Shown one piece after another: positions 13,474 to 62,137 of a DNA stretch of 64,000 nucleotides. The stretch lies in NCBI GenBank assembly GCA_032622095.1, contig CP136065.1, positions 38,870,503-38,934,502 on the forward strand. Reading direction: 5' to 3'. Under the pieces are notes generated by a model. That model saw nothing but the letters and a program-made list of their open reading frames with translations. It was not told the DNA's origin and did no database searches. The translations under genes and the position numbers were made by a program. The stretch's first letter is position 1; each line of letters starts with the position of its first letter. Source of the stretch: Siphonodentalium dalli. Lineage: Eukaryota; Mollusca; Scaphopoda; Gadilida; Siphonodentaliidae.

Positions 13474-13864
13474 CCCTTTACCCAACAAAACGGCCAAAAC
13501 CGGCCAAATAAAGCTTCAACAGCCTAAAATATCTTCGGTCTGTCTCAATAGAACCATACAAATCTGGATATCATTGGAACCGGCTCCTTGACCACACTGT
13601 GATAGTTACAGTTATGCCCTGTGCCAATGCATTCTCTTATATATGCGAGTCGACCATAGGTCGCCTCACATATATAAGAGAATGCATTGGCCTAAAAACA
13701 ATCTTTTTTTAACACTTTTTACCATTTTGTTTACATTCTTTAACAATTTTATAATTTTTAATGTGTTAAGCCAATGCATTCTCTTATATATGCGAGGCGA
13801 CCTATGGTCGACTCGCATATATAAGAGAATGCATTGGCACAGGGCCCTTCTGTTGGGTAAAGGG
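13474..13864 (-). mobile_element. piggyBac-like MITE, family A, copy 1 (inverted relative to copies 2-4)
   Basis: The element is flanked on both sides by TTAA (13470-13473 and 13865-13868). Its inner ends are CCCTTTACCCAACA and the exact complement TGTTGGGTAAAGGG. The TTAA target plus CCC ends are the signature of piggyBac-superfamily elements. At 391 bp it has no room for a transposase. Inside are two copies of the 69-bp hairpin in opposite orientation (13623-13691 and 13770-13838), an AT-rich spacer, and a ~140 bp tail with GGCCAAAACCGGCC. Confidence 0.88.
13623..13691. repeat. 69-bp hairpin module H (first of 11 full copies)
   Basis: The stem starts GCCAATGCATTCTC and is 27 bp long, followed by one mismatched pair, a 5-bp CGACC/GGTCG stem and an ATA loop. 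The consensus stem is perfect; this copy has one substitution (CTCACATA instead of CTCGCATA). Full copies are at 13623-13691, 13770-13838, 16343-16411, 16492-16560, 20848-20916, 20996-21064, 28919-28987, 38260-38328, 38397-38465, 60406-60474 and 61952-62020. A half copy is at 60354-60376. Confidence 0.95.
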
Positions 13865-13869
13865 TTAAC

Positions 13870-14179
13870 CATGGATTTGGTAATTCTTCCATCTATAACA
13901 TTACATCAGCGACATCGTTATCATCATCGCCGTCGTGTGACATCTTCCAATGTTTTTTTTTGTATGTTTCATTTGCTGGTTTTTGTTTTTATTTTGTTTG
14001 TTATGTTTTGATTTTTTGTGGCCACTATATGAACATTTCGTTATTTAATAACTTGTGTCATGTTACAGAGAAATGTGCATTTGGAACAAGACGCTCACAT
14101 TGTTCATCAAGATTCATATAGTAATTTATATATATACAGACTGATCTTGACACTGATTTGCATCTATATGTGGAATTTA
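13870..14179. other. Short spacer, nothing recognised
   Basis: AT-rich sequence with CATCATCGC and CATCGTTATC triplet stretches at 13905-13935. No gene or clear repeat boundary is seen. Confidence 0.4.
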
Positions 14180-15122
14180 CACGAACATGACTTTTGGAAC
14201 TTATTTCCTATTCCTTATTCGCAAAAATGTACCGTTCGGTCAATACCGCGCATAGAATCACAGCGCACACCGGGGATACAACCTCGAGGGGTGAAAATGG
14301 GGCATGGACCATTTTCGAGACCGGCAAGTATTTCGGCCAATTTGACGGCATGGGCGTGTGCGCCCCATATACATCCACACACTCGGCGGTAACGTCCTGA
14401 AAGGGGTAAAACATATGGTATGGACCATTGTCGAGAACGGTAATAATTTCAACCAATTTGACGGCATGTGTGTGACGCCCGCCCCAAATACCCCCTAGAA
14501 ACATCCTCACTCTTCAATCCGCACCTCCGGGGGTACCGACCCGAGGAGGGTAAACATTGGGTATGGACAATTTTCGGGAAGCACCCACCACTCGCCCGCA
14601 CCCCCGTGGGGTACCAACCCGAGGGAGTGAAAATGGTGTATGGACAATTTTCGAGAACAGTAAGGATTTCGGCCAATTTTACGGCATGGGTGGGTGGCCC
14701 TCCCCAAATACCCATAGAAACACACGCAGCTCACAGCCCCGGGGATATATAGGGGGTATTAAGGGCGGGCCACCCACTCATGCCGTCATATTGGTAGAAA
14801 TCCTTACCGTTCTCGAAAATTGTCCATACACCATTTTCACTCCCTCGGGTTGGTACCCCCGGGTGAGGGGGGTTCTATGGGGTATCTGGTATGGATCACA
14901 CACCCATGCCGTCAAATTGGCTGAAATCCTTACCGTTCTCGAAAATATACCATTTCCACCACTGGGGTGGTACCCCCGGGGTGCGGGTGAGGGGCGGGTG
15001 TTTCTAGTGGGTACTTGGGGTGGGCCACCCACACATGCCGTCAAATTTACCGAAAGGTACATTTTTTTCGAAAAAAAAGAAAGAATGAGGAATATGGAAT
15101 AAGTTCCAAAGTCATGTTCGTG
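14180..15122. mobile_element. Fold-back element FB3 with ~125 bp inverted subunits
   Basis: The outer ends mirror each other: ACGAACATGACTTTTGGAAC at 14181 and its complement GTTCCAAAGTCATGTTCGT ending at 15121. The left arm holds direct subunits marked by GGCCAATTTGACGGCATG (about 14333, 14451 and 14671). The right arm holds the same unit inverted (CATGCCGTCAAATTGG, about 14778, 14906 and 15034). The strand switch is near 14745. Units are GC-rich and include CCCGAGGGAGTGAAAATGG and AATTTTCGAGAACGGTAAG. The 60-181 codon open frames here run through inverted repeat units on both strands and are not genes. Confidence 0.8.
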
Positions 15123-15712
15123 AATTCACTATGTTAAGCTGTATATACAACGTTTAGATACGTATAATGTGCATGGTGTTTTCGTACAGGCATGCATGCT
15201 TTGTCTTGAATGGTTAATCGAGACATTCGATGTTTTTGGGGCACCGCGCCGTTGTTGGACATGCATGCCTATACGAGTTGAAGAACCATTACCTTTATAG
15301 TCTTGGGTTTTATAAATGAGCACATAAAGCTCCTTTCTTTTCCCCGACATTTACGACATTTCTATTAAAATTTTAAATTTTCTCAACAAGAAAACAACGA
15401 CCTTCCAAAGAAGAGGTTTTGACAAGTTTATTGAGATCACGTGCAAATTAAATAGTGTTTTCGTGTGTCGGTTCGGATGTAAAGAGATGCTAAATCCTTT
15501 GTTTGCGGTAAACGCGGCCTGCTGAACTAGAAACAGTTAATTCAAATGCAACAGGTGTGCGCTAGCCGAAAATAACGGTCGAGTGACTTTGATAAAGAAA
15601 GCTTTCATTAATGGCGCGCAAAAACCAAGTAAATACCCGGAATTTGTGTATTGAGATATCTTGAATCAGATGAAAAAACATCGGTATGTGTCCGAGCAAC
15701 TACAAGTACTAG
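15123..15712. other. Spacer, nothing recognised
   Basis: Mixed-composition sequence with no domain, RNA gene or repeat boundary that I can support. Confidence 0.4.
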
Positions 15713-16144
15713 ATCATGCCATGAATTCCTGTCCTAGCTACGCCCGTAGAGCTCATATTCCACCAGTACAAAACCTGGGAACTTTTTGATGTTCTGACCC
15801 GTTATGACAGGGAACTTTATAACATTGAACAAACAAGGCAGGGAATATATTTCTTTGTTAATAAGTGTTCCTCAATAATATACTTCACAGTGGGGAATGG
15901 TCCCAGCTGGAGATTGCATGCTTTTTGTGATTTTTGTGAGCTCACATCGAAATAAACATTCAATTAATTACCCGGGAGAAATTCCATAATTTAAGCAAAA
16001 TTGCTGGCAGTCACTTTAATCGTACAACTTCAATGTAATAAATGTCCCTGTCAACTGGGCACAACATCAAAACGTTCCCAGGTTTTGTTCTGGTGGAATA
16101 TGATCTCTGCGGGCGTAGCCAGAGTAGAGATTCGTGGAATGATC
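15713..16144. mobile_element. ~430 bp terminal-inverted-repeat element (family T)
   Basis: The left end (GATCATGCCATGAATTC, then CTAGCTACGCCCG and CATATTCCACCAG, then AAAACCTGGGAAC) is mirrored at the right end. There GTTCCCAGGTTTTG, CTGGTGGAATATGATC and CGGGCGTAGCCAG run inward to outward. The inverted arms are about 75 bp with a few mismatches. No coding capacity. A second, half-degraded copy lies at 56724-56960. Confidence 0.75.
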
Positions 16145-16316
16145 AAGTGTAGTTGATATCTTTGTGGTGTATCTATATATAGGAACACAGTCATAAAATC
16201 AATCATTACACTTCAACGATGGTCATAAAGTAATGTTACTTTAGACAGTATTCTCATCATTACAGCTACAGTACCTATAGGAACACCAGCAGTAGCGAAG
16301 AAATGTATAGGCTTAA

Positions 16317-16708
16317 CCCTTTACCCAACAGAAGGGCCCTGTGCCAATGCATTCTCTTATATATGCGAGTCGACCATAGGTCGCCTCGCATATATAAGAG
16401 AATGAATTGGCTTAACACATTAAAAGTTATAAAATTGTTAAAGAATGTAAGAAAAAATGGTAAAAAGTGTTAAAAAAAAGATTTTTTTTAGGCCAATGCA
16501 TTCTCTTATATATGCGAGGCGACCTATGGTCGACTCGCATATATAAGAGAATGCATTGGCACAGGGCTAACTGTAACTATCACAATGTGGTCAAGGAGCC
16601 GGTTCCAATGATATCCATATTTGTATGGTTCTATTGAGACAGACCGAAGATATTTTAGGCTGTTGAAGCTTTATTTGGCCGGTTTTGGCCGGTTTGTTGG
16701 GTAAAGGG
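16317..16708 (+). mobile_element. piggyBac-like MITE, family A, copy 2
   Basis: 392 bp between TTAA at 16313-16316 and TTAA at 16709-16712, with ends CCCTTTACCCAACA and TGTTGGGTAAAGGG. Two oppositely oriented hairpin modules lie at 16343-16411 (one stem mismatch, AATGAATTGG) and 16492-16560. The spacer carries AAAATTGTTAAAGAATG. The right-hand tail carries AAGGAGCCGGTTCCAATG and GGCCGGTTTTGGCCGG. The right TTAA is shared with the start of the neighbouring AAGGGG MITE. Confidence 0.9.
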
Positions 16709-16711
16709 TTA

Positions 16712-16950
16712 AAGGGGTACTGCACGCTAAATCCGCCCATTTATGGGACCATCTCCTTTTATACTCAACATAATATATGCAACAAATAAATGAATTTGAG
16801 CCATGGATGAGTGCAAAATGCACACATGTGGTCTATAAAGGATGCGAAAAACATGGTAATTATAATGAAAATTCATTTTCATTATAATGAAAATTCATTT
16901 TCATTATAATTACCATGTTCTTGGAGAATTAGGGAACAGTCCCCCTTTAA
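16712..16950 (-). mobile_element. Short MITE family E, copy 1, with internal palindrome
   Basis: The ends AAAGGGGTACTGCACGCTAA and (right, complemented) AAAGGGGGACTGTTCCCTAA match each other and the copy at 17596-17781. The interior holds GGGACCATCTCC, the AT-rich block GCAACAAATAAATGAATTTG, and a 23-bp inverted repeat around 16851-16919 starting AACATGGTAATTATAATG. It directly abuts piggyBac-like copy 2. Confidence 0.7.
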
Positions 16951-17595
16951 AGCTGGTCTTGAAGATCACGTGGCTTAGTTGTCACCTATACACACACATT
17001 AGTGCTTTATTCAACGTGTCAAACCCATCAAGAAAAAAGAAATGTTTGTTGATACGAATATACTACACGACAGCCTGCATCTTTTATTCACCACAGTTAG
17101 GTCATCGGGAATATTCAAAAGTACATGCGAACTGTGTGGTAGTAAATAAACCTCAGCGAATAACTCATATTATAGTTGTGGTTGTAGTCAATTCACAATT
17201 CAATAAAATGATAATGTTTAATTGGAAACCACTAAATGAATACTATGTATGTGAAAGCTTTAAATTCGATTACCCTGAGCTAAGTCAATTTTATACATGT
17301 TTACGAAACTTCCATTTCAAACTATTATACTATTTTATGGCCATCAACATTAGTGACTAACCAACAAGATGACTGTTAAGAAAATCATGAAACCTTGAAT
17401 TTTACCAATGATAGCAGACGAGAGTTGATAATTTAAAATTAAGTGGAGCCCTTATTGAACCCAAACGTAATAGAATACCTTTTTCGACACCCGAAGCTGC
17501 ATGACTGTGTTCGTCTCAGTTTTATTCTTATTAGTGCGAGCCATAGAAGACAAGACATCGAACATAGTTCGTGTTTAATACGAGAGCGGGCCTTT

Positions 17596-17781
17596 AAAGG
17601 GGTACTGTACACTAAATTTCATTTTCATTATAATTACCATGTTGTTTGCATCATTCATAGAGCACATGAGTGTATTTTTGCACTAATCCTTGGCTCAAAT
17701 TCATTCATTTGTTGCATATTTTCTGTTGAGTATAAATAGAGATGGTCCCATAAATGTCCGGATTTAGTGTACAGTGCCCCT
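17596..17781 (+). mobile_element. Short MITE family E, copy 2
   Basis: Terminal inverted repeats are GGGGTACTGTACACTAAAT and ATTTAGTGTACAGTGCCCC. The internal sequence (ATTATAATTACCATGTT, TTCATTTGTTGCATATTT, GATGGTCCCAT) is the reverse complement of copy 1. At 186 bp it is non-coding. Confidence 0.75.
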
Positions 17782-18378
17782 TGACTGTGACAGTGATCAA
17801 CGAGAAATGTACACCATTTACTATAGTTATCAATGTCCGAAAGTCCAACAGACATCACTGCTATACACAGTGTAAAGAATTGTCTGATCAGAGAATCAAA
17901 TTCAACAGGTGGCCGCCTGTTGATTCGTTGTACGAGCTATGACATCTGTCGTTGGCGCCCGATTCAAATCTTATAGTGGCACGTGTGTATTCAGACAATT
18001 AAATGGATTTTATTTAAAACTCAAATTAATTTAAAGTGACACATGGCCATATTAATTCCTATATTATAGTATCTTCCTGTTTTCGCGATGATGCAAATGA
18101 CATCTGTGGTAGGAATTCGAGGTGGAAGTAATCTTTTAGCTGATAACTGCATGGTGGAAAGTATGAGCATATATATGATCATAAGTGAAATGGCTATGGT
18201 TGCTGTTGCAATAAATTTGTTACGACAAAGAGTTAATGCAGTCTGAATACACTTTAGATCAACGAATATCGCTATGTCATAACTAGGCATATGTGTATAA
18301 TGTTAACACAAACAGGGATTAAAGGGCATGGTTCGTTCGAACCCGAAAATTATATATATAATTATTTGGTACTTTACT
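17782..18378. other. Spacer, nothing recognised
   Basis: No supported gene. A small perfect-ended inverted repeat (CAACAGGTGG/CCGCCTGTTG) lies near 17908. Otherwise featureless AT-rich DNA. Confidence 0.4.
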
Positions 18379-18465
18379 TTAAACATATTTTATTGTAAAT
18401 TCATTTACAACGGGATTGGGGTACACGTTTTAACAACCCACAGTGTCCCCGCTCCCATATACAAT
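18379..18465 (-). repeat. Fragment of a non-LTR retrotransposon 3' end
   Basis: The segment from AAACATATTTTATTGTAAAT through GGGATTGGGGTACACG and TTTTAACAACCCACA to CCCGCTCCCAT matches the region just right of piggyBac-like copy 3 (21217-21300). There it is the 3' untranslated end of a reverse-transcriptase fragment. It is therefore probably a 5'-truncated copy of the same element. Confidence 0.5.
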
Positions 18466-18480
18466 CTATATATATGTATG

Positions 18481-18630
18481 AATTTAAACATCTATATATG
18501 AATTTAAACACCTATATATGAATTTAAACACCTATATATGAATTTAAACACATATATATGAATTTAAACATCTATATATGAATTTAAACACATATATATG
18601 AATTTAAACATCTATATATGAATTTAAACA
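18481..18630 (+). repeat. 20-bp tandem repeat, 7.5 copies
   Basis: The unit is AATTTAAACANCTATATATG, repeated with an exact 20-bp period. Positions 11-13 vary between TCT, CCT and CAT. TCT, CCT and CAT variants are partly interspersed, consistent with slippage or unequal exchange. Confidence 0.95.
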
Positions 18631-20817
18631 TATTTGGTAAGATATATCTCAAAACATATATAGGCGTACGATTTCCGAACAAACTCGTATATATATATAT
18701 AGTACTGAAAATACGTATTTTGTTTCTTATATTTTCCGGTAAATTTGAGTTCGTTTCGTTTTAAGGCACGTGCGGCCTTAGTTGTCGAAAATTTTCATAT
18801 TTGTTCCAATCACCGTAAACAGAAAAACATTAAAAAGCATATAGTTTCGTCCATATATACCATGACCATCACGTAAACAGCATGTTATCATAAAGACATA
18901 CTATATTTTACCTAAACAAGAGCCTGATTGTGTTACAGAAGATAGCACAATGCTACTGGCTAATCACACACAAATGGCATAAACGCTCTTTATTAGTTCC
19001 ATATCAGGAATTCACCAACAAAGAACGCTCTTTATGTTTACCATCATAATATAAACAAACACCAGAAAAGTAACTTTTTAAGCTTTTGTTTTCATAACAA
19101 TGGTCAAATATATGACAATAACATGCTGTTTATGCGATATTTCTTATTTGTATACGGACAAAGTCTGTCTACATTTTGATGTTCTTTCTGTTTGTGGCGG
19201 TTTTTGACGGGTGGAAATATTTTCACAGGATACCCACCACCAAGGCCAACCGTATCTTTAATATGTGCCTGTTCACAATGCACATGTTACAGACCATAGG
19301 TTGAAACTCTAGAGCTGTCATCGCTCTGAATCTATTACGATTCTTTAATGGCTAAAATGAAGAGAAAGGAGTCGATGCAAAGCTACCCATAAATGACACA
19401 AGTGAATCACGATAATTTACAACGGGTGCTCGGCGGCCTATGTCGTTAATGTGCATACCACATTAGGCGTCATATACGTCATCCAGAAATTGTGAATCTG
19501 TTGGGTAGCATTGGGGTACGTTCATACACTGGCAACTTTGCACGGTATCGTTTGCAGGCATTTCGTCGTAGAAAACGATATGGTGCCAGAATATGAACGG
19601 AAACATGCATATAAGATGCATCTATATCAAAGCGATTTACGTGTGAAGTAATCTCTATAGGTTCCACCTGAACCGATGCCACCGGAATGCTGCCTGTAAA
19701 GAGCATGCAATTATATCGCAAGAATCAATGATACGGGCATTTGTAGGCAATGCCAGTAGCACCGTTACAAGCGGAACTACAGGAATTTTACTTCTCATGT
19801 GGTTTTCTATGACGAAATGCCCACAAAACACACCATGCAAACTTGCCAGCGTATGAACGTACCCTTAGTGTCAAGTTTGTCGGTTACTTATAGTATAGTA
19901 GAGTATAAATAGTGTATGTGGAGTGTATCGATTTCCCCTTCAAATTAACCCTCTGGTCAGGTTTATCCAACAACGCCGTGAATTGGTCTGCCGCCTATAT
20001 ATGTATAACGACTGACATAACTGATTCCACAATATAACAATCTATACCATATTATAGGAAAATAGTCTGAGTACACGGGAATCAGGGGACCGAACTTATC
20101 AAAGACCCTGTGTTATCGGATTCAACCATTTATGCATGTATTCCATGTCATAGCGGGTATATGCATGCTCTTCAGAAATGGAGGTAATAAACAAATACGG
20201 TCATACCGATATGTGTGGTCATGACGGAGATAGACGGATACACAAAAACAGACATCTCGGATAACCGGAGATATGAGTTCATGAGGTGGTGAATGCACAT
20301 AGCGAACATTGTGGCGTGTACTTGAGTGCGTACTGTTTACTTTAGGATGATTTATAAAAGTTCGACAAACAATATTGAAACCCCTCAACAGGTGGGTACA
20401 ATACGGGCTTCAATGATGGTCGAACTATATTTCAATACACGGCATTCTTTCGAAGATGCATGGTGAATCTGAAATTACATTGTCTATTTCGATGTTATAG
20501 GGAGAAACAGTATTGTCATGATTTGTATGTATAGATATTTAAAATATTTTTACAGCACTTTACAATTATACATTCGAACCTCGAGGACAGGTCTGTTGGT
20601 ACGGGGTCGCGGACTTGCGGTCTTCCCCAAACGGTTCACTATATAGTCCACCCTGGTTGGTTTAAACATTGATTGTTTATATCCACCAAATATATAAGTA
20701 TGTTACATAAGACACATTGAACATGGACATACATAAGGAATTGTTACAATGTATATGGTACAGTGTTATATATACGGTAGTAAGGGAGATCGACAGTAAA
20801 CATGTGGCTTTTTTTGT
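18631..20817. other. Gene-free stretch, nothing recognised
   Basis: Short ORFs only, such as 19479-19721 minus and 20122-20388 minus, without family motifs. The 12-mer AACGCTCTTTAT occurs twice in close succession (18983 and 19025) and again near 38636, hinting at a minor dispersed motif. Confidence 0.45.
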
Positions 20818-20821
20818 TTAA

Positions 20822-21213
20822 CCCTTTACCCAACAGAAGGGCCCTGTGCCAATGCATTCTCTTATATATGCGAGTCGACCATAGGTCGCCTCGCATATAT
20901 AAGAGAATGCATTGGCTTAACACATTAAAAATTATAAAATTGTTAAAGAATGTAAGAAAAAATGGTAAAAAGTGTTAAAAAAAGATTTTTTTTAGGCCAA
21001 TGCATTCTCTTATATATGAGAGGCGACCTATGGTCGACTCGCATATATAAGAGAATGCATTGGCACAGGGCATAACTGTAACTATCACAATGTGGTCAAG
21101 GAGCCGGTTCCAATGATATCCATATTTGTATGGTTCTATTGAGACAGACCGAAGATATTTTAGGCTGTTGAAGCTTTATTTGGCCGGTTTTGGCCGGTTT
21201 GTTGGGTAAAGGG
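20822..21213 (+). mobile_element. piggyBac-like MITE, family A, copy 3
   Basis: 392 bp between TTAA at 20818-20821 and 21214-21217, with the same 14-bp ends as copies 1 and 2. Hairpin modules lie at 20848-20916 and 20996-21064; the second has one GAGAGG substitution. It appears inserted at the 3' edge of the retrotransposon fragment to its right. AAACATATTTGTATTG resumes directly after the right TTAA, and an A-run (T7 on plus) precedes the left TTAA. Confidence 0.9.
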
Positions 21214-21217
21214 TTAA

Positions 21218-21775
21218 ACATATTTGTATTGTCATACAATATTACAAGAGGGATCGGGGCACAAGTTTTAACAACTTACATCCGCCCCTCTCCCATTAAC
21301 ATTTTAACAAATACAACGTAGATGACGAACATAACATATATACAGGGTGATGTATGGTGTGTTTGTGATTGATGTCAGTCCTATCCTGCTTTTGAAATTT
21401 CATCTGAGGTAGTCAACATTTGTAACGCACAGGAGGATCGCCAATATTTTTAGCAGAGGGGGCCTAATTAAATCGTTTCGTTGATGAAATGTATGAATAA
21501 ACAAAATGGAAAAGAATTTCATTGGGTCGATTCGATTCTGATGATATCCCTGTGAGTAAGGAGGAAATGTTTGATATTATAAATTGGTGGGCTGCAATCT
21601 TGTTGAAAATTTCGCATCTTTCGGTTGCATACAGGGGGCACTCAAAGAAATAATGAAAGGCATCTTCGACTTCGTATCCACATGTGCATTTAGTGGTATC
21701 AGAGATAAACTTGTTGTACATATCTGATTACAATAGTTGCGAATTGGCTTTTCGGGTGTCGTTCTCCCCATGTAT
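21218..21775 (-). pseudogene. 3' remnant of a non-LTR (LINE-like) retrotransposon reverse transcriptase
   Basis: The minus-strand frame at 21464-21721 encodes 85 residues with KCTCGYEVEDAFHYFFECPLY-type spacing: C-x-C-G, E-D-A, H-Y-F-F and C-P-L-Y. I recognise this as the cysteine/histidine motif at the C-terminus of many non-LTR ORF2 proteins. Upstream in the same frame the residues HGENDTRKANSQLL can be read, then an in-frame TAA just before the Met, so the copy is dead. No polymerase core is present, so it is strongly 5'-truncated. The 3' untranslated part (21218-21463) shares GATCGGGGCACAAG and TTTTAACAAC with 18379-18465. Confidence 0.75.
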
Positions 21776-22363
21776 CATCAAGGGCCCCTGTAAAATGTAT
21801 ATATAAATCATCCTGGGATTTTCCGATCGGGACAGGAAAGTATAGATAGATAATTCGGATATTACATGCATGGGTTCTGGGATTTTTTGGATATTAAGAA
21901 TTAATTTGCTATACGATGTTGGTGGTCCTGCTGATTTGCTACGATACTGTAGCCGATTCTGTTAAGTAAAAGTGGCGGTATTATTCCTAAAGTATTAGTA
22001 TTCCTAAACTATTTTCATATATAATGGTGGCGCTGTGTTTGCATATAACGACAGGGAAAGTCATCTCAATTGTGACTGGCTTGCAACAACCATTATTAGA
22101 CTTTGTATAACAAACCGTGTCACCATTTGCAATTGAAGTGTTTGAATAGATAATATATAATGTTCACGTAAAGTCTGTTTGATACTTAATAATGGTGAAG
22201 TACACGATAGTCCACAAATTCCTTAAATTGGTCCAAAAAGTCAACATTAACTATACAGTTAGGAAGAGCATTCCACACATGTCGGATTATCTGTGTGAAA
22301 AGGTACTTTCATATATATACAGGGTCTCTGATGCTACTTTGGTCGATCACCATATGTTTTATC
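21776..22363. other. Spacer, nothing recognised
   Basis: May include further degraded sequence of the retrotransposon on its left, but no readable domain remains. Confidence 0.4.
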
Positions 22364-24441
22364 ATGCCTATTGTCGCTGTATAAGTACGAAAGCGCATTA
22401 GGGCCATCCGAAACACCACCGCACCACAAAATATACAAATATACAACTCGTTAGGGTCATCCGAAACACCACCGCACCCCAAATATACAAATACACAACT
22501 CATTAGGGTCATCCGAAACACCACCGCACCCCCAAATATACAAATATACAACTCGTTATAACGTTTACCAACAACTCATTGCAGCGACTTACAACTCGTT
22601 ATGATGACTTGCAAGTCATTATAACTAGTTGTAAGTTATTATAACGAGTTGTAGGAAGTCGTTATAACGACGTTATACTATAAAGAGTTGTGTATTTGTA
22701 TATTTAGTGGTGCGGTGGTGCTTCGGATGGCCCTAATGAGTTGTGTATTTGTATATCTGGGGGTGCGGTTGTGTTTCGGATGACCCTAATGAGTTGTGTA
22801 TTTGTATATTTGGGGGTGCGGTGGTTTTTCGGATGGCCCTAATGAGTTGTGTATTTATATATTTCGGGGTGCGGTGGTGTTTCGGATGACCCTAATGAGT
22901 TGTGTATGTGTATATTTAGTGGTGCGGTGGTGTTTCGGATGGCCCTAATGAGTTGTATATTTGATTATTTGGGGGTGCGGTGTGCTTCGGATGACCCTAA
23001 TGAGTAGTGTATTTGTATATTTGAGGATGCGGTGGTTTTTCGGATGACCCTAATGAGTTGTATATTTGTATATTTGAGGGTGCGGTTGTGCTTCGATGAT
23101 CCTAATGAGTTGTGTATGTGTATATTTGGGGGTGCGGTGGTGTTTCGGAAGACCCTAATTAGTTGTGTATTTGTATATTTGGGGGTACGGTGGTGTATCG
23201 GATGACCCTAATGATTTGTGTATTTGTATATGGCATTATGGGGGGGGGGGTGATGTGGTGTTTTGGATGACCCTAATGAGTTGTGTATTTTTATATGGGG
23301 GGTGCGGTGGTGTTTCGGATGGCCCTAATGAGTTGTGTATTTGTTTATTTGGGGCTGCGGTGGTGTTTCAGATGACCCTAATGAGTTGTGTATTTGTATA
23401 TTTAGGGGTGCGGTGGTGTTTCGGATGGCCCGAATGAGTTGTGTATTTGTTTATTTGGGGCTACGGTGGTGTTTCGGATGGCCCGAATGAGTTGTGTTTT
23501 TGTATATTTGGGGGTGCGGTGGTGTTTCGGATGGCCCTAATGAGTTGTGTATTTGTATATTTGGGGGTGCGGTGGTGTTTCGGATGGCCCTAATGAGTTG
23601 TGTATTTGTATATTTGGGGGTGCGGTGGTGTTTCGGATGACCCTAATGAGTTGTGTATGTGTTTATTTGTTGGGTGCTGTAGTGTTTCGGATGACCCTAA
23701 TGAGTTGTGTATTTGTATATTTGGGGGTGCGGTGGTGTTTCGGATGACCCTAATGAGTTGTGTATTTGTATATTTGGGGGTGCGGTGGTGTTTCTGATGA
23801 CCCTAATGAGTTGTGTATGTGTTTATTTGTTGGGTGCTGTAGTGTTTCGGATGACCCTAATGAGTTGTGTATTTGTATATTGGGGGGTGAGGTGGTGTTT
23901 CGGATGACCCTAATGAGTTGTGTATGTGTTTATTTGTTGGGTGCTGTAGTGTTTCGGATGACCCTAATGAGTTGTGTATTTGTATATTGGGGGGTGAGGT
24001 GGTGTTTCGGATGACCCTAATGAGTTGTGTATGTGTTTATTTGTTGGGTGCTGTAGTGTTTCGGATGACCCTAATGAGTTGTGTATTTGTATATTTGGGG
24101 GCGCGGTGGTGTTTCTGATGGCCCTAATGAGTTGTGTATTTGTATATTGGGGGGTGAGGTGGTGTTTCGGATGACCCTAATGAGTTGTGTATGTGTTTAT
24201 TTGTTGGGTGCTGTAGTGTTTCGGATGACCCTAATGAGTTGTGTATTTGTATATTGGGGGGTACGGTGGTGTTTCTGATGGCCCTAATGAGTTGTGTATT
24301 TGTTTATTTGGGGTGCGGTGGTGTTTCTGTTGGTTCTAATGAGTTGTATATTTGTATATTTGGCGGGGGGGGTGCCGTGGCAGTTCGGATGGGCCTAATA
24401 CGTTTTCGTAGTATAATTTTTTAAGACGCAACAGGAAATAG
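22364..24441. mobile_element. Fold-back element FB2 built on a 53-bp minisatellite
   Basis: The outer ends are related inverted repeats: AGTACGAAAGCGCATTAGGG on the left and CCTAATACGTTTTCGTAGTA on the right. The left arm holds about three units in reverse orientation (22396-22560). A small loop region (22561-22687) is rich in self-complementary TTATAACGAGTTGTAA-type sequence. The right arm holds about 32 direct units (22688-24410). The layout matches FB1: minisatellite arms inverted around a switch point. Open frames of 60-90 codons here repeat CVFVYLG-like peptides because 53 is not divisible by 3 and the three frames cycle; I reject them as genes. Confidence 0.85.
22688..24410 (+). repeat. 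53-bp minisatellite array with higher-order repeats
   Basis: The unit reads AATGAGTTGTGTATTTGTAT, then ATTTGGGGGTGCGGTGG, then TGTTTCGGATGACCCT. A diverged unit (TGTATGTGTTTATTTGTTGG) recurs near 23654, 23814, 23922, 24028 and 24188. Spacings are about 106 or 160 bp, so dimers and trimers of the 53-bp unit have themselves been amplified in the right half of the array. Confidence 0.92.
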
Positions 24442-24561
24442 CGTAGCTTTGTTGATATTATAATATTCTATTTTTATTTTTGTACACCTCTAGAGGGTCA
24501 CCATGAAGTCTAAATAAAGGCGGTATATAAATGAAATTATACAGTTGGGAATTTGGTGTGA

Positions 24562-24650
24562 TTCAAAGAGTGTGGGTGTGAACTTGAAAATTTAAAGCTG
24601 ACATCCCCGAAAGAAAAAACCCTTATAGCCACGGTCTTGAAACCCCATGA
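24562..24650 (+). repeat. hAT-like repeat end (dispersed family D)
   Basis: The segment GAACTTGAAAATTTAAAGCT, GACATCCCCG, CTTATAGCCACGGTC parallels 27170-27242 (CCAAGTTGGACACCCCAACG, CTTATAGCCACGTCCCTG) and the reverse copy at 54604. Only one end is recognisable. Confidence 0.45.
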
Positions 24651-24696
24651 TACCTTAGAAAATCAAAACCATCAATTAACTCGCGCTTTCACCTTT

Positions 24697-25039
24697 AGTG
24701 TACAAGAAGCTTTCATATCCATACAATAATGTTGCAACGAAAGTGCAAATTGCAGGGCAGTTAAGCGCTTCTGTAGTCTCATCAATCATTGCCGAGCCAG
24801 GTGAATTATTTACGTGCAGCATAAATCCCCCATCAGAAGATTACCGTTCTTTGTTATCATTAGCAAAATTCAAAACTGTTCCCGAAACAGTTAATTTGAA
24901 AATAAAATTCAACAGGTGGAATGATATCAAAATAACCGTCGATGGAGATTTTGGCGGGAAGATGAAGACATATGTTCAGAATGTCTCGCTTACCACCTTG
25001 CCTGTAACAACCAGCCACGACACTCTTCTTTCTTTTTGA
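24697..25039 (+). CDS. Unidentified exon-like ORF, 113 codons
   Basis: An open frame of 113 residues ends with TGA after HDTLLSF. It is preceded by a pyrimidine-rich CGCTTTCACCTTTAG that would serve as a splice acceptor just before the first codons. Composition looks protein-like rather than random: alternating hydrophobic and polar residues, NRWNDIKITVDGDFGG, two cysteines, no low complexity. That suggests a beta-rich extracellular fold, but I recognise no family. No partner exon is identifiable nearby, and a dispersed repeat end lies directly upstream, so it could be an exon stranded in a repeat, a pseudogene fragment or chance. The conceptual start Met is not necessarily a true start. Confidence 0.3.
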
Positions 25040-28867: not shown

Positions 28868-28871
28868 TTAA

Positions 28872-29345
28872 CCCTTTCAGTGCCAGGTCCGATTTTTGTA
28901 TCAACCCATATACCCTGTGCCAATGCATTCTCTTATATATGCGAGTCGACCATAAGTCGCCTCGCATATATAAGAGAATGCATTGGCCTAACAATTTTCA
29001 TCATTTGTTATTATTTTTTACAATTTTTTACAATTTTAATAATTTTTTCTTATATTCTTTAACAGACTTATTTTGTAGGTTTAGTGCCAGTGAATCTTAC
29101 GTTTTTCATGGGCATCAAAATTATTACTATGAATATTTGGTGATAGTTTTGAGTTATAACATGCCCCTAAGGTTTTATCCAGTTTGTTTTTAAATTCGCT
29201 ATAGCATGCTTAAGCTTACCCAAAAAAAAAATTTACCCAAAAACAATCTAAAAAAACTAATTTATTTTTATTTTTATTTTTTTTAGGGCCGATTTTAAAG
29301 ACCGTAAATTAGGGCCGATGAGATCGGCCCCTGGCACTGAAAGGG
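28872..29345 (+). mobile_element. piggyBac-like MITE, family B
   Basis: 474 bp flanked by TTAA at 28868-28871 and 29346-29349. The ends CCCTTTCAGTGCCAGG and CCTGGCACTGAAAGGG are perfect complements and differ from family A after CCCTTT. One 69-bp hairpin module (28919-28987) sits near the left end after CCCTGT, as in family A. The rest is T-rich filler with a second inner repeat pair (GGCCGAT). Non-coding. Confidence 0.9.
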
Positions 29346-29349
29346 TTAA

Positions 29350-35219: not shown

Positions 35220-35374
35220 TTAACCTTTTTTATACTAATATGAGACACGGTGCCTAACTCCCGAAATGGAAAAATGGGATAAATACTCATTGACGAGTAG
35301 TTCCCTTATGGAATGCTCAGATAATAAGTTCAACAAACGACATATGGTCGTTTGTTGAACTTATTATCTGAACA
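35220..35374 (+). mobile_element. piggyBac-like MITE, family F, partial copy with hairpin G
   Basis: The left end reads TTAACCTTTTTTATACTAA, a degraded form of the family F terminus CCCTTTCTATACTAA. It is followed by TCATTGACGAGTAGTTCCC as in the other copies, then hairpin G at 35314-35374. No matching right end is recognised. Hairpin G here has a ~28 bp stem (AATAAGTTCAACAAACG core) capped by CGAC-ATATG-GTCG. Confidence 0.65.
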
Positions 35375-35494
35375 ATAATCTCACCAATGAATATGAACCA
35401 TTCTGCTCTTGCATTATATTTTCGCATGGTTGTCGTATGCTTTTATTGCATGAACACCATTCCAAATGAATAATATATCATTCCAATGAATCTA

Positions 35495-37752: not shown

Positions 37753-38011
37753 ACATCTCGTTTGGGTTAAAGAGACAGTAATGCCCCAAGTAATCGACCC
37801 CTTAACCACATCAGAATTATGGGTAATTTTTCAGGATTTAGTTGGAAATATGGTTTGTTGCCATTCATCGGAAACCTCTCACTGAGAGCTTTCCAATGAA
37901 TGGCAACAAGCCATATTTCCGACTAAATCCTGAAAAATTACCCATAATTCTGCTGTGGTTAAGGGGTCGATTACTTAGAGCATTACTGTACATCTCGTTT
38001 TGGGTTAAAGA
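37753..38011. mobile_element. Long hairpin (~100-bp stem) between 21/22-bp direct repeats
   Basis: Inside 37775-37989 the left arm (ACAGTAATGC, AAGTAATCGACCCCTTAACC, ATTATGGGTAATTTTTCAGG, GTTGCCATTCAT) is mirrored by the right arm, with a loop around CTCTCACTGAGAG. Immediately outside are direct repeats ACATCTCGTTTGGGTTAAAG (37753) and ACATCTCGTTTTGGGTTAAA (37990). A related CTTTGGGTTAGATATGTG lies at 37517, so the direct repeats may predate the hairpin. Confidence 0.8.
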
Positions 38012-38233
38012 TATATGGTTGGCAGATGCGTTTAAATATGCCTAATCCAATGTGACACCAAACAATAGGGACAATTAAAAAAAAATTAAGCAGACCACTA
38101 GCGCCTGGCAATTAATTCACATCAGATTCATTTATTTATCACACGCAGGCTTCGCGAAACATATCGAAGGGATTTCAATTTAAAGTCATTATAGTCTAAA
38201 ATTAGAAAGGTAGAAGCGCTCTTTATAGTTTAA

Positions 38234-38614
38234 CTCTTTACCCAACAGAAGGGCCCTGTGCCAATGCATTCTCTTATATATGCGAGTCGACCATAGGTCG
38301 CCTCGCATATATAAGAGAATGCATTGGCTTAACACATTAAAAATTATAAAATTGTTAAAGAATGTAAGAAAAAATGGTAAAAAAAGATTTTTTTAGGCCA
38401 ATGCATTCTCTTATATATGCGAGGCGACCAATGGTCGACTCGCATATATAAGAGAATGCATTGGCACAGGGTATAACTATAACCATCACAATGTGGTCAA
38501 TGAGCCGGTTCCAATGATATCCATATTTGTATGGTTTGATTGAGACAGACCGAAGATATTTTAGGCTGTTGAAGCTTTATTTGGCCGGTTTTGGCCGGTT
38601 TGTTGGGTAAAGGG
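38234..38614 (+). mobile_element. piggyBac-like MITE, family A, copy 4
   Basis: 381 bp between TTAA at 38230-38233 and 38615-38618. The left end has one substitution (CTCTTTACCCAACA). Hairpin modules lie at 38260-38328 and 38397-38465. The spacer has lost about 11 bp compared with copies 2 and 3. Confidence 0.9.
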
Positions 38615-38618
38615 TTAA

Positions 38619-39962: not shown

Positions 39963-55783
<15,821 letters not shown>

Positions 55784-56723
55784 GAGTGAACATCAATGAC
55801 ACAAACAGATAAAGTTCAACAATAACACGCAGTAAGCCACGAGCTAAATAGTTCGAAGTATTGACAACAAATACACGTTGCTTCAGAATGTCTCAGGATT
55901 TTGTAAACGCCGCCTTTATTGGAAAACCCTCACCGCGCACGCGTGAAAACTTCGACCAAACAAATCGCTCGACGATTGTTATGCTAATTTTAATATTATA
56001 ATAGCGGTAGATTCCGATATCACCTTCCAGTAAAGAACCGTTGACTGCTAATCAAAAATCTATTGTTAGATTTCCGAGCGGTATGAATGTTTACTCGGAT
56101 AGCAGTGGTGGAGGGTATTATTATCCAAATATATCGCCACGAAGCGTGAAGTTTACAACCTATCGTTCATTCATATTCCCAGCTTCCCTTTATTCTTACC
56201 ACAAAGGATCATAAAAATTTATGTTACGCGACTAGTTTTATCATGGAGGTGAGAACGAGCTCACGGAACATGAATGAAGCTTCACCGTGGTTTATTACTA
56301 AAGTTCATTAACTTACCGATAAGCTGGTAGACAATAAATTTTAATCCCTGCAATAATTACCCGAACGCTCAGGTAACATCGAACTCGTTGGATATCTTAT
56401 CAAGTTTCGTTGAGCTCGGATTTAACTTTACTACCTGATCAGAAAGATCCTAATGAGCTAATATAATTTGTTTCGTCACGGATTAACGTGTTTGTGATAA
56501 GATTAAAGGGAATTTACAGGTTGAAGTAATTGAATTATTTCTCGATTAGTTCCAAATTAAGAAAAAAATCTGGTGAAATTGTCTAGTAATAAACAGTTCC
56601 CGGTTAGATTAACACTGCCCAGCAGGCCTGGCTGTCTTCATTTTCAAGAGAACCAATTCCCTCGAAGGTGGTCATGCGATATAACGTACAAGTCTGTAGA
56701 TCATTTCACGAACCTCTAATCTG
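55784..56723 (-). promoter_or_regulatory. Probable ovo 5' untranslated and promoter region
   Basis: Sequence directly upstream of the SNAG-encoding start codon. It has a locally CpG-rich patch at 55930-55980 (ACCGCGCACGCGTG, AATCGCTCGACG), unusual in this AT-rich window. No TATA box or initiator can be assigned with confidence, and the transcription start is unknown. Confidence 0.4.
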
Positions 56724-56960
56724 GCTAACGTCCGTAGAGATCATATTCCACTAGTACAAAACCTGGGAACGTTTTGAAGTTTTGACAGGGAACCGTATAA
56801 AGTGGAAAAAATAACGCGGGGAATACATTTCTTAGTTATTGTATAATAATGTACTTCACTGTATGTGAAGGCCCCAACTCGAATTTACCCGATTTAAGTG
56901 ACTTTTTCAGCGAACTTGCTTTGCGTCGCTTACAATTATGGAATTTCTCCTGGGTAATCA
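56724..56960 (+). mobile_element. Degraded half copy of inverted-repeat family T
   Basis: AACGTCCGTAGAGATCATAT, CCACTAGTACAAAACCTGGG, AACGTTTTGAAG and TGACAGGGAAC match the left half of the 15713-16144 element, including the internal GGGGAATACATTTCTTAGTT and TGTACTTCACTGT. The other terminus is missing. Confidence 0.7.
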
Positions 56961-57681
56961 ATTCTATGTTCATTGCGATATTCTTACAAGTTTAATAAAA
57001 CGTGATAGTAAACATTGGAAAAAGTCAAAGCATTGAAAATTATTCTGACCAAACTATTTGAATTAACTACACGATATGCGATGTTTGTTGATCAATCACT
57101 GTAACAGTTTTGCTCACATAACAATTGTTTCAAACCGAGGAATTTGGTTATTGGAAAAAAATATATACTGAATATAAGAACATAGGTTATCTATTTATCC
57201 ATGTTCTTCTTAGTGGTGATGTTTTATATATGTTGCACATTTACCACTTTAAGATTCGAATCTAATGTCTGCATAAAATTAAATCACAGGTAAACCCGCG
57301 GGTGCTCGTGTACACACATGTATATTAGTAAATATAAATTCGTTGATACACACCATATACCATATATTGGTAAATATATTATCTGATTATGATGAGTAAA
57401 CAAGTATACACACATTAAACGCGACATCGATGTATTATAATATTTATCATAATGATTTTATGTGTATGTATACATGTACATGTATTGATGATACGTAATT
57501 GTGTCATATGTATTGTCTCTGTAATGTCTTTCATGATGACCAGAGTTACTATTAAATTGAATTGTGTACAGAAGTGCACACATCGAACGGGTCATTGATT
57601 TATTACTGTGTATAGTCGTTCCAGTAGCTATAACGAAACTTTCAGTTGATATGGGTGGAGGAAAGACCGCACTGAGTGTTA
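56961..57681. other. Spacer, nothing recognised
   Basis: AT-rich sequence with short ORFs only; no family recognised. Confidence 0.4.
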
Positions 57682-58215
57682 ATTCCACTCAACTGAACAT
57701 CGAACCTACGACCAACGGAAAATTAGATGACAAATTTGTCCAGATATACGAATCAGTCACCCGATTCGCGCGCATTACAAATGTACGCCTATCGGTATTC
57801 AAACCCGCTTCGCCAGCGCCGGATATATAACAGTACATATAGTGGGTTTTCGTTTGTTAGGGTGTACAACTTTGATTTTTTATCTGCATCCCCTCAAACT
57901 AGAGACTTTCATCTCCTGGTAATTATAGTTACACCCAAGTGGGCTGGAATTTTGGCACCTGAAACCATCACAACGCTCTCAACTCATTGTCGAAATTAAG
58001 TTTTAAACTGTTGAAAACTCTGACCAAATTTGGGACAGGACACCCAATCTAACTCTGGGCATTTTCGATAGGAACTTAAAAAATAAATTTTAGACTGAAA
58101 TTAAACAAAAAAATTCATTTGTTTTTATTCCACTCAACTGAACATCGAATCTACGACCACCGGAAAATTAGATGACAAATTTGTCCAGATATACGAATCA
58201 GTCACCCCATTCGCG

Positions 58216-58273
<58 letters not shown>

Positions 58274-58555
58274 CAGTACATATAGTGGGTTTTCGTTTGT
58301 CAGGGTGTACAATTTCGATTTTTTTATCTGCACCCCATCACACTAGAGACTTCCATCTCCTGGTATTTATATTTACACCCAAGTGGGCTGGAATTTTGGC
58401 ACCTCAAACCATCACAACGCTCTCATATCATTGTCGGCATTAAGTTTTAAACTGTTGAAAACTCTGACCAAATTTGGGACAAGACACCCAATCGAACTCT
58501 GGGCATTTACGATAGGAACTTCAAAAATATATTTTAGACCGAAATTAAACAGTCA
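57682..58555 (+). repeat. Tandem duplication with 445-bp period
   Basis: ATTCCACTCAACTGAACATC starts both units (57682 and 58127). Many landmarks repeat in order: GATATACGAATCAGTCACCC, TATAGTGGGTTTTCGTTTGT, CACCCAAGTGGGCTGGAATT and TTAAACTGTTGAAAACTCTG. The second unit replaces a ~50-bp segment with a TA microsatellite (58218-58271). The 57564-57830 ORF (88 codons) spans the first unit start and is frame-broken in the second, so I do not call it. Confidence 0.9.
58218..58271 (+). repeat. (TA)n microsatellite
   Basis: About 27 uninterrupted TA dinucleotides following TTCGCGCGA in the second unit of the tandem duplication. Confidence 0.95.
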
Positions 58556-59124
58556 GGACAATTTCGTTTCAAAAATTCATAACAATATACATTTATATTA
58601 TGGATTTGGTGACTTTCCTATACTTGTAGATGTTGTGTGAGGCATGACAACATTTCCAACTGTTGACAATTTTGACAATTTGGGAATTGGGGGGGGGGGG
58701 GTGGGTAGAACCCCACACCCTGTCACCATGTCCCTTGGTGGCAGGTGGGGGTTTCTCATTCCCTCGATATAATTCTGTTCTCTTGAGCCTACAACGTTCC
58801 CTTCTACTATTCACAGCAATCCCCACGGGAAATGCCAAGGGTACTTCACAAAATATCATTAGTTTAGCTAATTTAGTAGAGTGTGATAGTAAGTGATCTT
58901 ATCGACTGCCAAACTGTCCTGGTTAAATACATGGGTGCATGGCAGCTGGTGGTCTTCGATTTTGTCCACATCAATCCGTTATCTTGAACTATAGTGTACA
59001 TTCCTCGGACAATTTAGTTCAACCGTTTGGGGAAACCCATGGGACCCGCGTATTTTCGTAGAAACATAAATGAAATCCCCAGGGGGGACAAACTGTGTAA
59101 ATGATAAGAAATAGACTAGAGACA
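58556..59124. other. Spacer with a possible family D repeat end
   Basis: CATTTCCAACTGTTGACAAT, a poly-G run at 58689, then CACACCCTGTCACCATGTCC at 58719 resemble a degraded CAGGGACGTGGC-type terminus. No gene is supported. Confidence 0.4.
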
Positions 59125-59235
59125 TATAGCTTCTCACAAGTGTCATACACGTTACTTCATGTGAACGTATTGTTTCATTATCACAAAGTTCTCCACTATT
59201 GGAAGTATATTATCTACATAACAATTAGTATCGAT
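59125..59235 (+). repeat. Dispersed sequence copy (frame-broken CHDVN-type)
   Basis: CTTCTCACAAGTGTCAT, TTTCATTATCACAAAGTTCT and ATATTATCTACATAACAATT parallel 62385-62495 and the minus strand of 29914-30030. Stops interrupt the peptide frame. Confidence 0.6.
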
Positions 59236-59504
59236 CACCGTAAAAATATGTTTCAATTTGAGAAAATTAGACCCGAATGATTCGGTCATGTTCTTTTCAC
59301 ACTGAAAAACAAATAATCCAACAATTATTATCTGGTGCCCACTTCCGTTCTCAGCATTATGCGAGTATATTAAACAGTTAATCGGAAACCAAATTTACGC
59401 CGCAGGCACAAGAATAGGGGCATGTTAGCAGAAAACAATAGTATACCTATTAACCACAGCACTTATGGTGTTCCACGTGGAACATTTTAGTTAACGGTAT
59501 ATCA

Positions 59505-59744
59505 TTGTTTGCAGAAACTGTTGTCCAACGTGTTAGACGCCTCGGGTTGAAAACAGTTCTGGAGAGCGATTCGGGATATAGCACCACAGTTGAGCTGAAT
59601 CAACAAGCTACCGTTAGTGGCTGCAATGGTTGTTTGCTGTACGCTAAAACGTCACCCGTCAGTGTGATCTTCCGGCGCTTGTTGGCGGTATTTATTAACA
59701 CCGGACATGTCAACAAGGCTCTAAAAGAACATACAGAAGGCGAC
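59505..59744 (+). CDS. Unidentified exon-like ORF ahead of a triplet repeat
   Basis: The frame begins after ATCATTGTTTGCAG, a good splice-acceptor sequence, and reads ETVVQRVRRLGLKTVLESDS, then GYSTTVELNQQ and CNGCLLYAKTSPVSVIF. It then runs into an ATG/ATC/GTC triplet tract. Composition up to 59744 is protein-like but no family is recognised. The conceptual ORF is 160 codons, but the part after 59744 is simple repeat. Confidence 0.25.
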
Positions 59745-59787
59745 ATGGTGATGATGATGATGATGATGATGATCATCATCATCATCG

Positions 59788-59825
<38 letters not shown>

Positions 59826-59878
59826 GTCGTCGTCGTCGTCGTCATCGTCATCATCGTCATCATCGTCATCATCGTCAA
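59745..59878 (+). repeat. Inverted triplet microsatellite: (ATG)n then (ATC/GTC)n
   Basis: About eight ATG/GATs are followed at 59772 by ATC repeats interspersed with GTC, so the two halves are partly complementary and can fold. CATCATCGTCATAATCATC-type relics continue to 60070. Confidence 0.92.
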
Positions 59879-60309
59879 GGCGAAGGGACCTGCAAAATAC
59901 AGTCCAACCATCCTATATTCTCACCCGGCTTTCGGTCGGAAACGACCAACTATACCATATCACCATATCATCATCGTTATAGGGTGAAGCCACCTGAACA
60001 TTGCAGGCCTTCAACCGGAAACGACTCAACCATCATAATCGTCATAATCATCATCACCACCATCATAGTATACGGAACTAGTCTTTCGACTTTTGTTAAA
60101 TTTCCAATATATTCTGGTAGTTCACATACATATTAAGTTTGAATTTATATAGGTATTTTATTTAGAGCGCTTCATATAGGCCAATATTCGTGCAGGGTAA
60201 TTTTTTGATAAGGGATATTTGTTAATTTATGTGGATATATTTGTTGTTATTGTGACGACGGTCTCGTGTGGACGCTTTAAGTCATTAAACTGTTAAATAT
60301 ATAGTTTAG

Positions 60310-60520
60310 CACTTTCATGACTGGAGCTTCCTGATGTTTTGCGAAAACCCTGTGCCAATGCATTCTCTTATATATGGTCTAACAATATTTACCTTTACAT
60401 TGTAAGCCAATGCATTCTCTTATATATGCGATGCTCCCTATGGAAGACTCGGATATATAAGAGAATGCACTGGCAGAGGGTTTTTAATGCTGCATCAGCG
60501 CAGTTCCAGTCACGAAAGGA
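60310..60520 (+). mobile_element. piggyBac-like MITE, family C, degraded copy
   Basis: The left end ACTTTCATGACTGGAGCT and the right end (complemented) CCTTTCGTGACTGGAACT match the family C terminus CCCTTTCATGACTGGAGCT. TTAA sites are eroded. It carries one half hairpin (60354-60376) and one full but diverged 69-bp module (60406-60474) after AACCCTGT. Confidence 0.7.
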
Positions 60521-61687
60521 CTATTTATTTTTATCTCAAACAGAACACATGTGTTCTTTACAAGTAAGTATGTGCATGAACAATATGTTTATAAAGTTTA
60601 AAGTTGTTTTACTTTTGTTTGATTCAACTTATAAAACATGATATCTACATGGACTGTTTATCGATAGTTTTCCGTGATTCAATAAAGGTTCAGTCAAAGT
60701 GTTATGCTTATACCTGAGAAATATGACTCACTCTGATTAAGTTTGATACTATATTTATAGGCATGATAACCGCCACACCGACATGTCAACATGAATACGT
60801 TTAATGCAGACTTTCAGCCCGGTGTACATCATTTCCAAATGTTCATAACTGTGATGTTCTGTAAGCGGAAAACTAATACTCTATACCAGAACCATTTGTC
60901 TTGATCACAGAACACATATGATCTCAGAATATCCCTCTTAATATCTCCACCTGAAAGAATTTCTGAATTGGTATCCGAAGGAATGTATAAAGAAGCACTA
61001 TATTTATCGAAATAATATCTTACCCACGACAAATATTTAAATACCTCTCTGACGCTTTCAACAAAAGAAATAACTTTTTATATAGACATTAAACTACTTA
61101 TTATGGTAATGGTTAACACATATATACAACGAATCAGAATGAATGTTTTAATTTTTATTTTTATTTTGCAATTTGATTTAGCAGGAATCGATACGTAAAA
61201 TATTCCTTATACGTATGCGAAAATATTATATTAAGCGTGACATATAGGCCTTATTGGCCGGGTTTTTACTGTATACTGTTCTCATTATATTTTGTATTAT
61301 GCGTACACATGTCACGTAAATAAATGATATATATCTCTCTCTGTTCTACACAGAACATGTATTGGTAGGGTTCCGCTCTACTTAGAACACATCCGACGCG
61401 TCATGCGTACATTTTTGTTTTAACAATGTAGTATTGCTAATATGATTGCATATATATATATACAGGTTCTCAAATATATTCCATATAATGCGGGGTACCG
61501 GAATCATCCGCGGGGACACACTTTTAAAAACCCTTTCTATTCTAAATTGATTTCCCCATTCACTTATAAAAGTATATATTGGAATTATCTATTATTCATT
61601 TGGAGGGGATGTTCAGTAAAAATGAGCAGACGGCAGTATGACAAAAAGATAATGCAAGTGCAGAAGTATTAATATTCTTTGGTGGGA
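60521..61687. other. Gene-free stretch, nothing recognised
   Basis: AT-rich; short ORFs only. Confidence 0.4.
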
Positions 61688-61795
61688 ATGTTCAGGTAAT
61701 AAGTTCAACATGGTCGTTTCGTTGAACGTATTATCTGAACATTTCCTTAGGGAACTACTCGTCAATGAGTGGTTAGTATAGCAAGGGCTAAAACA
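61688..61795 (-). mobile_element. piggyBac-like MITE, family F, partial copy
   Basis: The right end, complemented, reads CCCTTGCTATACTAACCACT then TCATTGACGAGTAGTTCCC. Inward lies hairpin G (61688-61742) whose apex has lost part of one arm, leaving CAACATGGTCGTTTCGTTG. The other end is not recognised. Confidence 0.65.
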
Positions 61796-61902
61796 TAGCA
61801 CAATTATATTCGGTAGACATGCAAACACAGAAAGTGTAATATATTTTCATGAATCAAGTTCATGCTAATCTGTCAGAATGAATGAATATATATAACTGTT
61901 TA

Positions 61903-62137
61903 CCCTTCCATGACTAGAGCTTAGTTAAATTTTGCGAAAAAAAAAAACTGTGCCAATGCATTCTCTTATAAATGCGAGTCGACCATAGGTCGCCTCGCAT
62001 ATATAAGACAATGCATTGGCCTAACAAATGTTATATTATTTTTTTTAATTGTTAAAGAATGTAAGAAAAATGAAAATAATTATAAAACAAATGTAAGGTA
62101 ATTCACTGGCACTGGCACAGCTCCCGTCATGAAAGGG
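61903..62137 (+). mobile_element. piggyBac-like MITE, family C, near-complete copy
   Basis: 235 bp with left TTTA (61899-61902) and right TTAA (62138-62141). Ends are CCCTTCCATGACTAGAGCT and (complemented) CCCTTTCATGACGGGAGCT. One 69-bp hairpin module at 61952-62020, followed by AATTGTTAAAGAATGTAAG, the same spacer motif as in family A. Confidence 0.85.

Follow-up and report, generated by a model that had tools for sequence, protein, structure and literature searches.

Why should miniature inverted-repeat transposable elements (MITEs) with different ends carry nearly the same inside? The question is raised by a 64,000-nucleotide stretch of the genome of the scaphopod Siphonodentalium dalli (contig CP136065.1, positions 38,870,503 to 38,934,502, forward strand; hereafter the window), in which one 69-bp hairpin lies within elements bearing three kinds of ends. 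We found that the shared part is wider than the hairpin, with CCCTGT outside it, C/TTAACA inside it and a related AT-rich spacer, and that this cassette, here called X, is present in at least one further family with another target site. It is quite possible, and is our tentative reading, that X is a unit that several MITE families carry nested within them and have exchanged with one another, with the pairing of its stem kept in the lineages that amplified.

The hairpin consists of a 27-bp stem, a T/C mismatch and then CGACC-ATA-GGTCG; folded as RNA, it reaches -54.3 kcal/mol (z about -14), which is very stable. The named ends and eleven hairpins that the original prediction, made from the letters of the window, had described are present at their positions: ten are full 69-bp near-perfect palindromes (starting at 13623, 13770, 16343, 16492, 20848, 20996, 28919, 38260, 38397 and 61952), and the eleventh, at 60406, has an altered tip. 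They lie in seven elements, as had been proposed, belonging to families A, B and C (names taken from that prediction; D, F and X were coined in the present analysis):

13470..13868, reverse strand: element A1, family A, TTAA ends included, with hairpins at 13623-13691 and 13770-13838.
16313..16712, forward strand: element A2, family A, with hairpins at 16343-16411 and 16492-16560.
16339..16564, forward strand: cassette X within A2, reading CTGT-hairpin-spacer-reversed hairpin-ACAG.
20818..21217, forward strand: element A3, family A, with hairpins at 20848-20916 and 20996-21064.
28868..29349, forward strand: element B1, family B, with a single hairpin at 28919-28987.
38230..38618, forward strand: element A4, family A, with hairpins at 38260-38328 and 38397-38465.
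60306..60524, forward strand: element C1, family C with decayed ends, with a half hairpin at 60354 and a class II hairpin at 60406-60474.
61899..62141, forward strand: element C2, with family C ends and a class I hairpin at 61952-62020.

We searched the whole genome of which the window is a part (2,226,750,531 bases in 9 contigs of 190-301 Mb). The intact hairpin was found 126,800 times, or once per 17.6 kb, against no match for a control with the reversed pattern, which rules out chance. The 14-mer GCCAATGCATTCTC occurred 168,925 and 168,661 times on the two strands (337,586 in total), again with none for the reversed-pattern control. The window, with 20 exact 14-mers against 9.7 expected, is richer than the genome average, and a random sample of ten 10-kb stretches (100 kb) held 6 against 15.2 expected; the loci that were read come mostly from the first 3 Mb of contig 1. 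The copy number of the hairpin is well above 100,000 because it makes up the outer part of a cassette that sits inside several otherwise unrelated MITE families. On contig 1, at about 820,000-921,000, hairpin sites recur roughly every 11.2 kb as a tandem array whose large unit contains A and B elements.

The layout of X is CCCTGT-hairpin-C/TTAACA-AT-rich spacer(-centre-spacer), and at its other end there is often another hairpin, inverted, followed by ACAGGG. Among 80 tabulated hairpins, which include segmental duplicates and exclude the overlapping loci L004-L007, the four outer bases were CTGT in 55, ATGT in 10 and others in 15, the last group including class II tandem arrays in which the spacer of the previous repeat forms the outer side; the six inner bases were CTAACA in 44, TTAACA in 15, CTAAAA in 12 and others in 9. 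Genome-wide, CTGT directly precedes 161,465 of the 337,586 14-mers; since of the two 14-mers in a hairpin one faces outward and the other inward, the ceiling is half, and the figure amounts to about 96% of the outward-facing half. CTGT thus adjoins the hairpin as had been described, whereas its supposedly fixed distance from the end is constant only within one family and side, the hairpin lying 26 bp from the end on the short side of A, 148-149 on the long side of A, 47 in B and 44-49 in C. Among the CTGT-preceded 14-mers, 64,728 sit 12-40 bases inside TTAACCYTT and 16,989 sit 25-50 bases inside GTGACCCGCC, the end of family F. Those remaining on contig 1 include the long side of A and decayed ends; of six ends that could not be assigned from the lists, five proved, when their sequence was read, to belong to A, B and C (one each) and F (two), with altered ends, the sixth being a duplicate of locus L073. 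The hairpin alone was accordingly rejected as the mobile unit, CCCTGT and C/TTAACA nearly always accompanying it.

Families A, B and C are short and non-coding, with TTAA at both ends (mutated in some copies) and CCCTT(T) terminal inverted repeats. Family A has 91,612 exact TTAACCCTTTACCCAACA ends, corresponding to about 46,000 elements if that number is halved. Each B copy seen carries one hairpin, and C frequently carries tandem hairpins with a period of 97 bases, the unit being the hairpin plus CTAACAATATTTACCTTGATCTTTGTAA (L051 and L088, contig 1, 541,700-545,100; also L041 3340-6660). Family F, which is absent from the window, is about 430 bp long, with GTGACCCGCC ends, two hairpins and an arm of about 45 bp at either side. 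Identical 4-bp flanks were present in 10 of 13 F elements (ATAT in 8, ATTT in 2) and TTAA flanks in none of the 13, so that F lacks the TTAA target of piggyBac-type MITEs. Each of the families A, B, C and F has outer arms unlike those of the others in sequence, length and symmetry. The pairing of opposite hairpins that had been described for A is indeed found there but is not special to it, since it occurs in F too. That elements with different ends carry near-identical cargo is confirmed, and F is a further case of it. Because the shared cargo reaches this family with another target site, the hairpin is not confined to a single monophyletic MITE family.

The two ends of an element always agreed: in all 36 complete hairpin elements from the loci and the window (18 A, 10 B, 4 C and 4 F, some of them segmental duplicates), both ends belonged to the same family, and none of the 36 had mismatched ends. 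The inside is less faithful to its ends. The C-type hairpin consensus differs from the others by 6-7 bases, and C ends are found with class I hairpins (C2 in the window, and L049) as well as with class II hairpins (C1, L051, L083 and L087); therefore, cassette and ends are not tied, and the ends and the cassette of C2 have different histories. Of the suggestion that recombination swaps ends, exchange as such is supported by the occurrence of C ends with both hairpin classes, but elements with mismatched ends were not among the 36. These observations suggest that such elements can capture or swap their insides while keeping their own ends.

Cassettes without family arms were found at two loci, where X has a sharp end next to unrelated DNA and no other element ends. 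At L062 the junction reads TA|CCCTGT-hairpin, and its 100-base outer flank occurs at just three places in the genome; L062 and L115 are two of these, with the cassette at the same junction, and the third lies beside a listed CTGT-14-mer. At L076 the junction reads hairpin-ACATGG|TATATACC and lies within a dispersed repeat with 326 candidate matches, of which 40 were scored; ten copies of the repeat were read and lacked the hairpin (0/10). Of these ten, L123 comes closest to L076, agreeing with it at 71 of 87 left-side and 34 of 41 right-side bases; between the two sides it has 14 bases, in place of the roughly 240 bases of cassette in L076. The remaining nine agree with the right side at 34-37 of 40 or 41 bases and with the left side in short stretches only. 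TA stands directly before CC(C/A)TGT in L062, L076, B and F, and the F centre is also present in L062, L073 and L076. A centre motif, GAGCAGACGACA, apparently common to F, L062 and D, was not used, as it is present at unrelated sites and lies at about chance level by our own estimate.

We also compared the divergence of the hairpin with that of the rest of the cassette. After the exclusion of 11 loci as duplicates or overlaps and of 5 further rows as repeats, 63 rows were left, off-length or short-flank hairpins being unused, and 44 entered the rates (13 for the A short side, As; 9 for the A long side, Al; 12 B; 10 F). A (both sides), B and F have one and the same consensus for the hairpin, with 0/69 differences. 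The spacer consensuses differ at 11/56 (A-B), 7/53 (A-F) and 9/60 (B-F) aligned bases, or 13-20% (Fisher p for hairpin versus spacer, 8e-5, 0.0023 and 0.00072), with the F spacer entered by hand from the loci as read and the alignment of these AT-rich spacers uncertain. Spacer similarity exceeded shuffles for A-B (z 4.3), A-F (z 5.8) and B-F (z 7.8), and some other spacer pairs did not exceed them. Private changes within families numbered 18/1,804 in the hairpin interior, of which only 41 bases were counted because loci had been picked by intact 14-mers, 45/1,584 outside it, where the F contribution is probably inflated by a T-run, and 63/2,349 on the inner side; in B alone there was no difference (1.8, 2.1 and 2.1% for interior, outer and inner). 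After insertion the hairpin therefore decays at the same rate as its flanks or somewhat more slowly, and between families it is unchanged. Equal divergence of hairpin and flanks, which would make shared cargo unsurprising, is roughly what family B displays after insertion, and it is not what the family consensuses display.

The differences between the hairpin classes are of a particular kind. In the commoner C consensus, all five changed pairs are still pairable: in two, both bases have changed, and the other three are G-U on one strand but A-C on the other. Single copies of A, B and F, by contrast, depart from the consensus at paired sites 20 times, and 18 of these departures destroy a pair (p = 0.0004; p = 0.033 when strict Watson-Crick pairs are required). 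Among 36 distinct hairpins, cells with both sides changed numbered 21 against 8.1 in shuffles (reached by 0 of 500), while pairs with double change (4) and further pair types (12) were reached by 199 and 100 of 500 shuffles. The idea that the hairpin itself is under selection thus gains from class changes that suggest kept pairing and gains nothing from the doublet and pair-type counts; sequence relatedness or arm-by-arm correction could give the same pairing picture.

In our tentative reading, which is also the simplest account, X would be a present or past insertion unit ending at CCCTGT beside TA. Nested insertion would have put copies of it inside separate TTAA MITEs (A, B and C) and an ATAT-type MITE (F), and later exchange would have moved cassettes among families. 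The outer ends, served in trans by the transposases of other elements, may have spread these composites to more than 100,000 hairpins, and stem pairing would have been retained in the amplifying lineages because pairing helps amplification. A bolder form, in which X is a hyperparasite of MITEs that repeatedly installs itself just inside ends served by different transposases, its stem pairing being selected, we consider unlikely. Several results count against nesting. No intact cassette-free A junction was found: set beside the 91,612 exact A ends, the tested place gave two matches, both resembling deletion scars, so that we infer nesting in A rather than see it. Recurrent insertion into ready-made A elements was rejected on this ground, and a separately mobile hairpin that targets these elements, taken literally, has against it both this result and the nearly constant company of CCCTGT and C/TTAACA. 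TA is absent at the cassette junction in A and C. The arm-free loci are only two, with a single hairpin and one sharp end each, and at L076 a full target duplication is unreadable because its other hairpin and end are lost. At L073, both hairpins lie outside clear family arms and the left flank matches a dispersed repeat, but only to about 40 bases from CCCTGT; because the match stops there, L073 may have arms of its own, and it was not counted as an arm-free cassette, its flanks not settling the case. Nor do the transposases found so far complete the picture. We detected at least 128 piggyBac transposase matches (PF13843) genome-wide; in the 30 loci read (L009-L038) the hairpin was never present, which led us to reject an autonomous piggyBac as its carrier, and two ends of A, B, C, D or F (with up to 3 mismatches) never flanked the transposase, whose own ends were located in just one of the 30. 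No transposase for X or F was identified, and no search aimed at one was made. Many PF13843 frames are free of internal stops and several have identical scores, suggesting recent piggyBac activity.

Three other explanations deserve weight to different degrees. Ectopic recombination or gap repair between hairpins, which we regard as less likely than nesting with exchange but as a serious possibility, would need neither a mobile X nor a function: the palindrome would stall replication or break, and repair would move cassettes and homogenise the hairpin. It accommodates the two hairpin classes under C ends and L078, an A element whose single hairpin lies between CTGT and ACAGGG, the product to be expected if the two hairpins of such an element recombine, and it has a precedent in the Galileo element of Drosophila mojavensis, copies of which, in passages of PMC3573991, have the ends of one subfamily and the inside of another. 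However, no mismatched-end element was seen among the 36, and both the arm-free cassettes and the first gain of a cassette by the unrelated family F are left unexplained.

Selection on the hairpin, acting as a DNA cruciform or an RNA (for example, a transposition enhancer or a small-RNA source) in insides of ancient common descent, would account for the unchanged 69-bp consensus beside diverged spacers, the pairable class changes, the excess of cells changed on both sides and the very stable fold. Nevertheless, arm-templated correction of the palindrome can yield double changes without selection, the double-change and pair-type counts do not exceed shuffles, the strict Watson-Crick contrast is weak, the hairpins of B decay after insertion like their flanks, and the arrival of the cassette at unrelated ends is not addressed; on its own, this explanation seems to us improbable. 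Least of all do we credit a single monophyletic MITE family in which ordinary change has driven the ends apart: the spacers of A, B and F are related, and TTAA and CCCTT ends are common to A, B and C, but outer arms so unlike one another, together with the different target site of F, leave it very little room. Nesting, exchange and selection can all be partly true.

Another family in the window has only the hairpin tip in common with X:

43678..43942, forward strand: element D1, a TTAA family with CCCTTTCTATACTAA ends, with a hairpin at 43727-43793 that has a different stem and a CGAaC-ATA-GGTCG tip.
35220..35371, forward strand: left part of a second D-type element, with a hairpin at 35317-35371; its right end was not found.

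A third D-type site lies at 61527-61791. The D stem (TTCAGATAATAAGTTCAACAAA) is unlike that of the main hairpin and its tip resembles CGACC-ATA-GGTCG; as tested, the stem has 129 exact copies genome-wide against 126,800 main hairpins. In 13 of 50 D-pattern places listed, CCATAGG or its complement lies between the CGAC and GTCG that the pattern demands. The D hairpin is at most a possible distant relative.

Elsewhere in the window, at 16709-17782, A2 adjoins, beside TTAA, a repeat that starts with AGGGGTACTGCAC; an inverted copy of it lies at 17676-17782, and the whole may be a further element of the TTAA type. At 22396-24400 there is a satellite-like block built of 53-base repeats. Three open frames in one block at 799-2651 encode repeats such as SYEHIIRRSYAREVLILS and probably represent tandem DNA repeats in translation. 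A further pair of long, near-perfect palindromes resembles repeated MITEs, one at 37775-37989 (also at L003 2308-2468) and one at 51226-51479 (also at L036 3038-3291). The window and six loci gave no Rfam match at the gathering score and no tRNA, four open reading frames of the window had no Pfam match, and viral contigs contained no exact match to a 23-mer. Among the titles and abstract openings listed from the open-access literature, no hairpin common to unrelated MITE families was recognised, and searching PMC3442997 by terms returned no match.

It is an open question how new MITE families originate and what lets some of them grow to tens of thousands of copies. The present cassette, whose more than 100,000 hairpins are nearly identical and occur with four or more sets of ends and two kinds of target site, makes a natural experiment that separates the role of the ends (which transposase) from that of the inside (amplification, exchange and silencing). 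If the hairpin is selected, it points to an internal feature behind the success of MITEs; if it is not, it points to palindromes as exchange points between unrelated transposons.

Known systems resemble this one in part. MITEs of the piggyBac type have a TTAA target and CCCTTT-type ends; A, B and C are like them in their TTAA and CCCTT(T) inverted repeats, in a genome with many piggyBac transposase genes, and differ in that three end sets share one inside, which is also present in a non-TTAA family. Families of short interspersed nuclear elements (SINEs) share central domains under different heads and tails, and likewise combine a conserved central module with differing end modules; SINEs, however, are retroposons that swap by template switching, whereas the elements described here are DNA with inverted repeats. 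The Galileo copies of D. mojavensis in which two ends from one subfamily enclose a central part from another are attributed, in the passages of PMC3573991 concerned, to recombination and conversion among copies; those chimeras arise within one transposon family, whereas here a palindrome is what is shared, and ends with different targets share it. In Aedes aegypti, ATon-I, as described in PMC3422177, is non-autonomous and has putative stem-loops just inside both ends, and ATon-I and ATon-II have terminal bases in common but not insides, the reverse of the arrangement in S. dalli.

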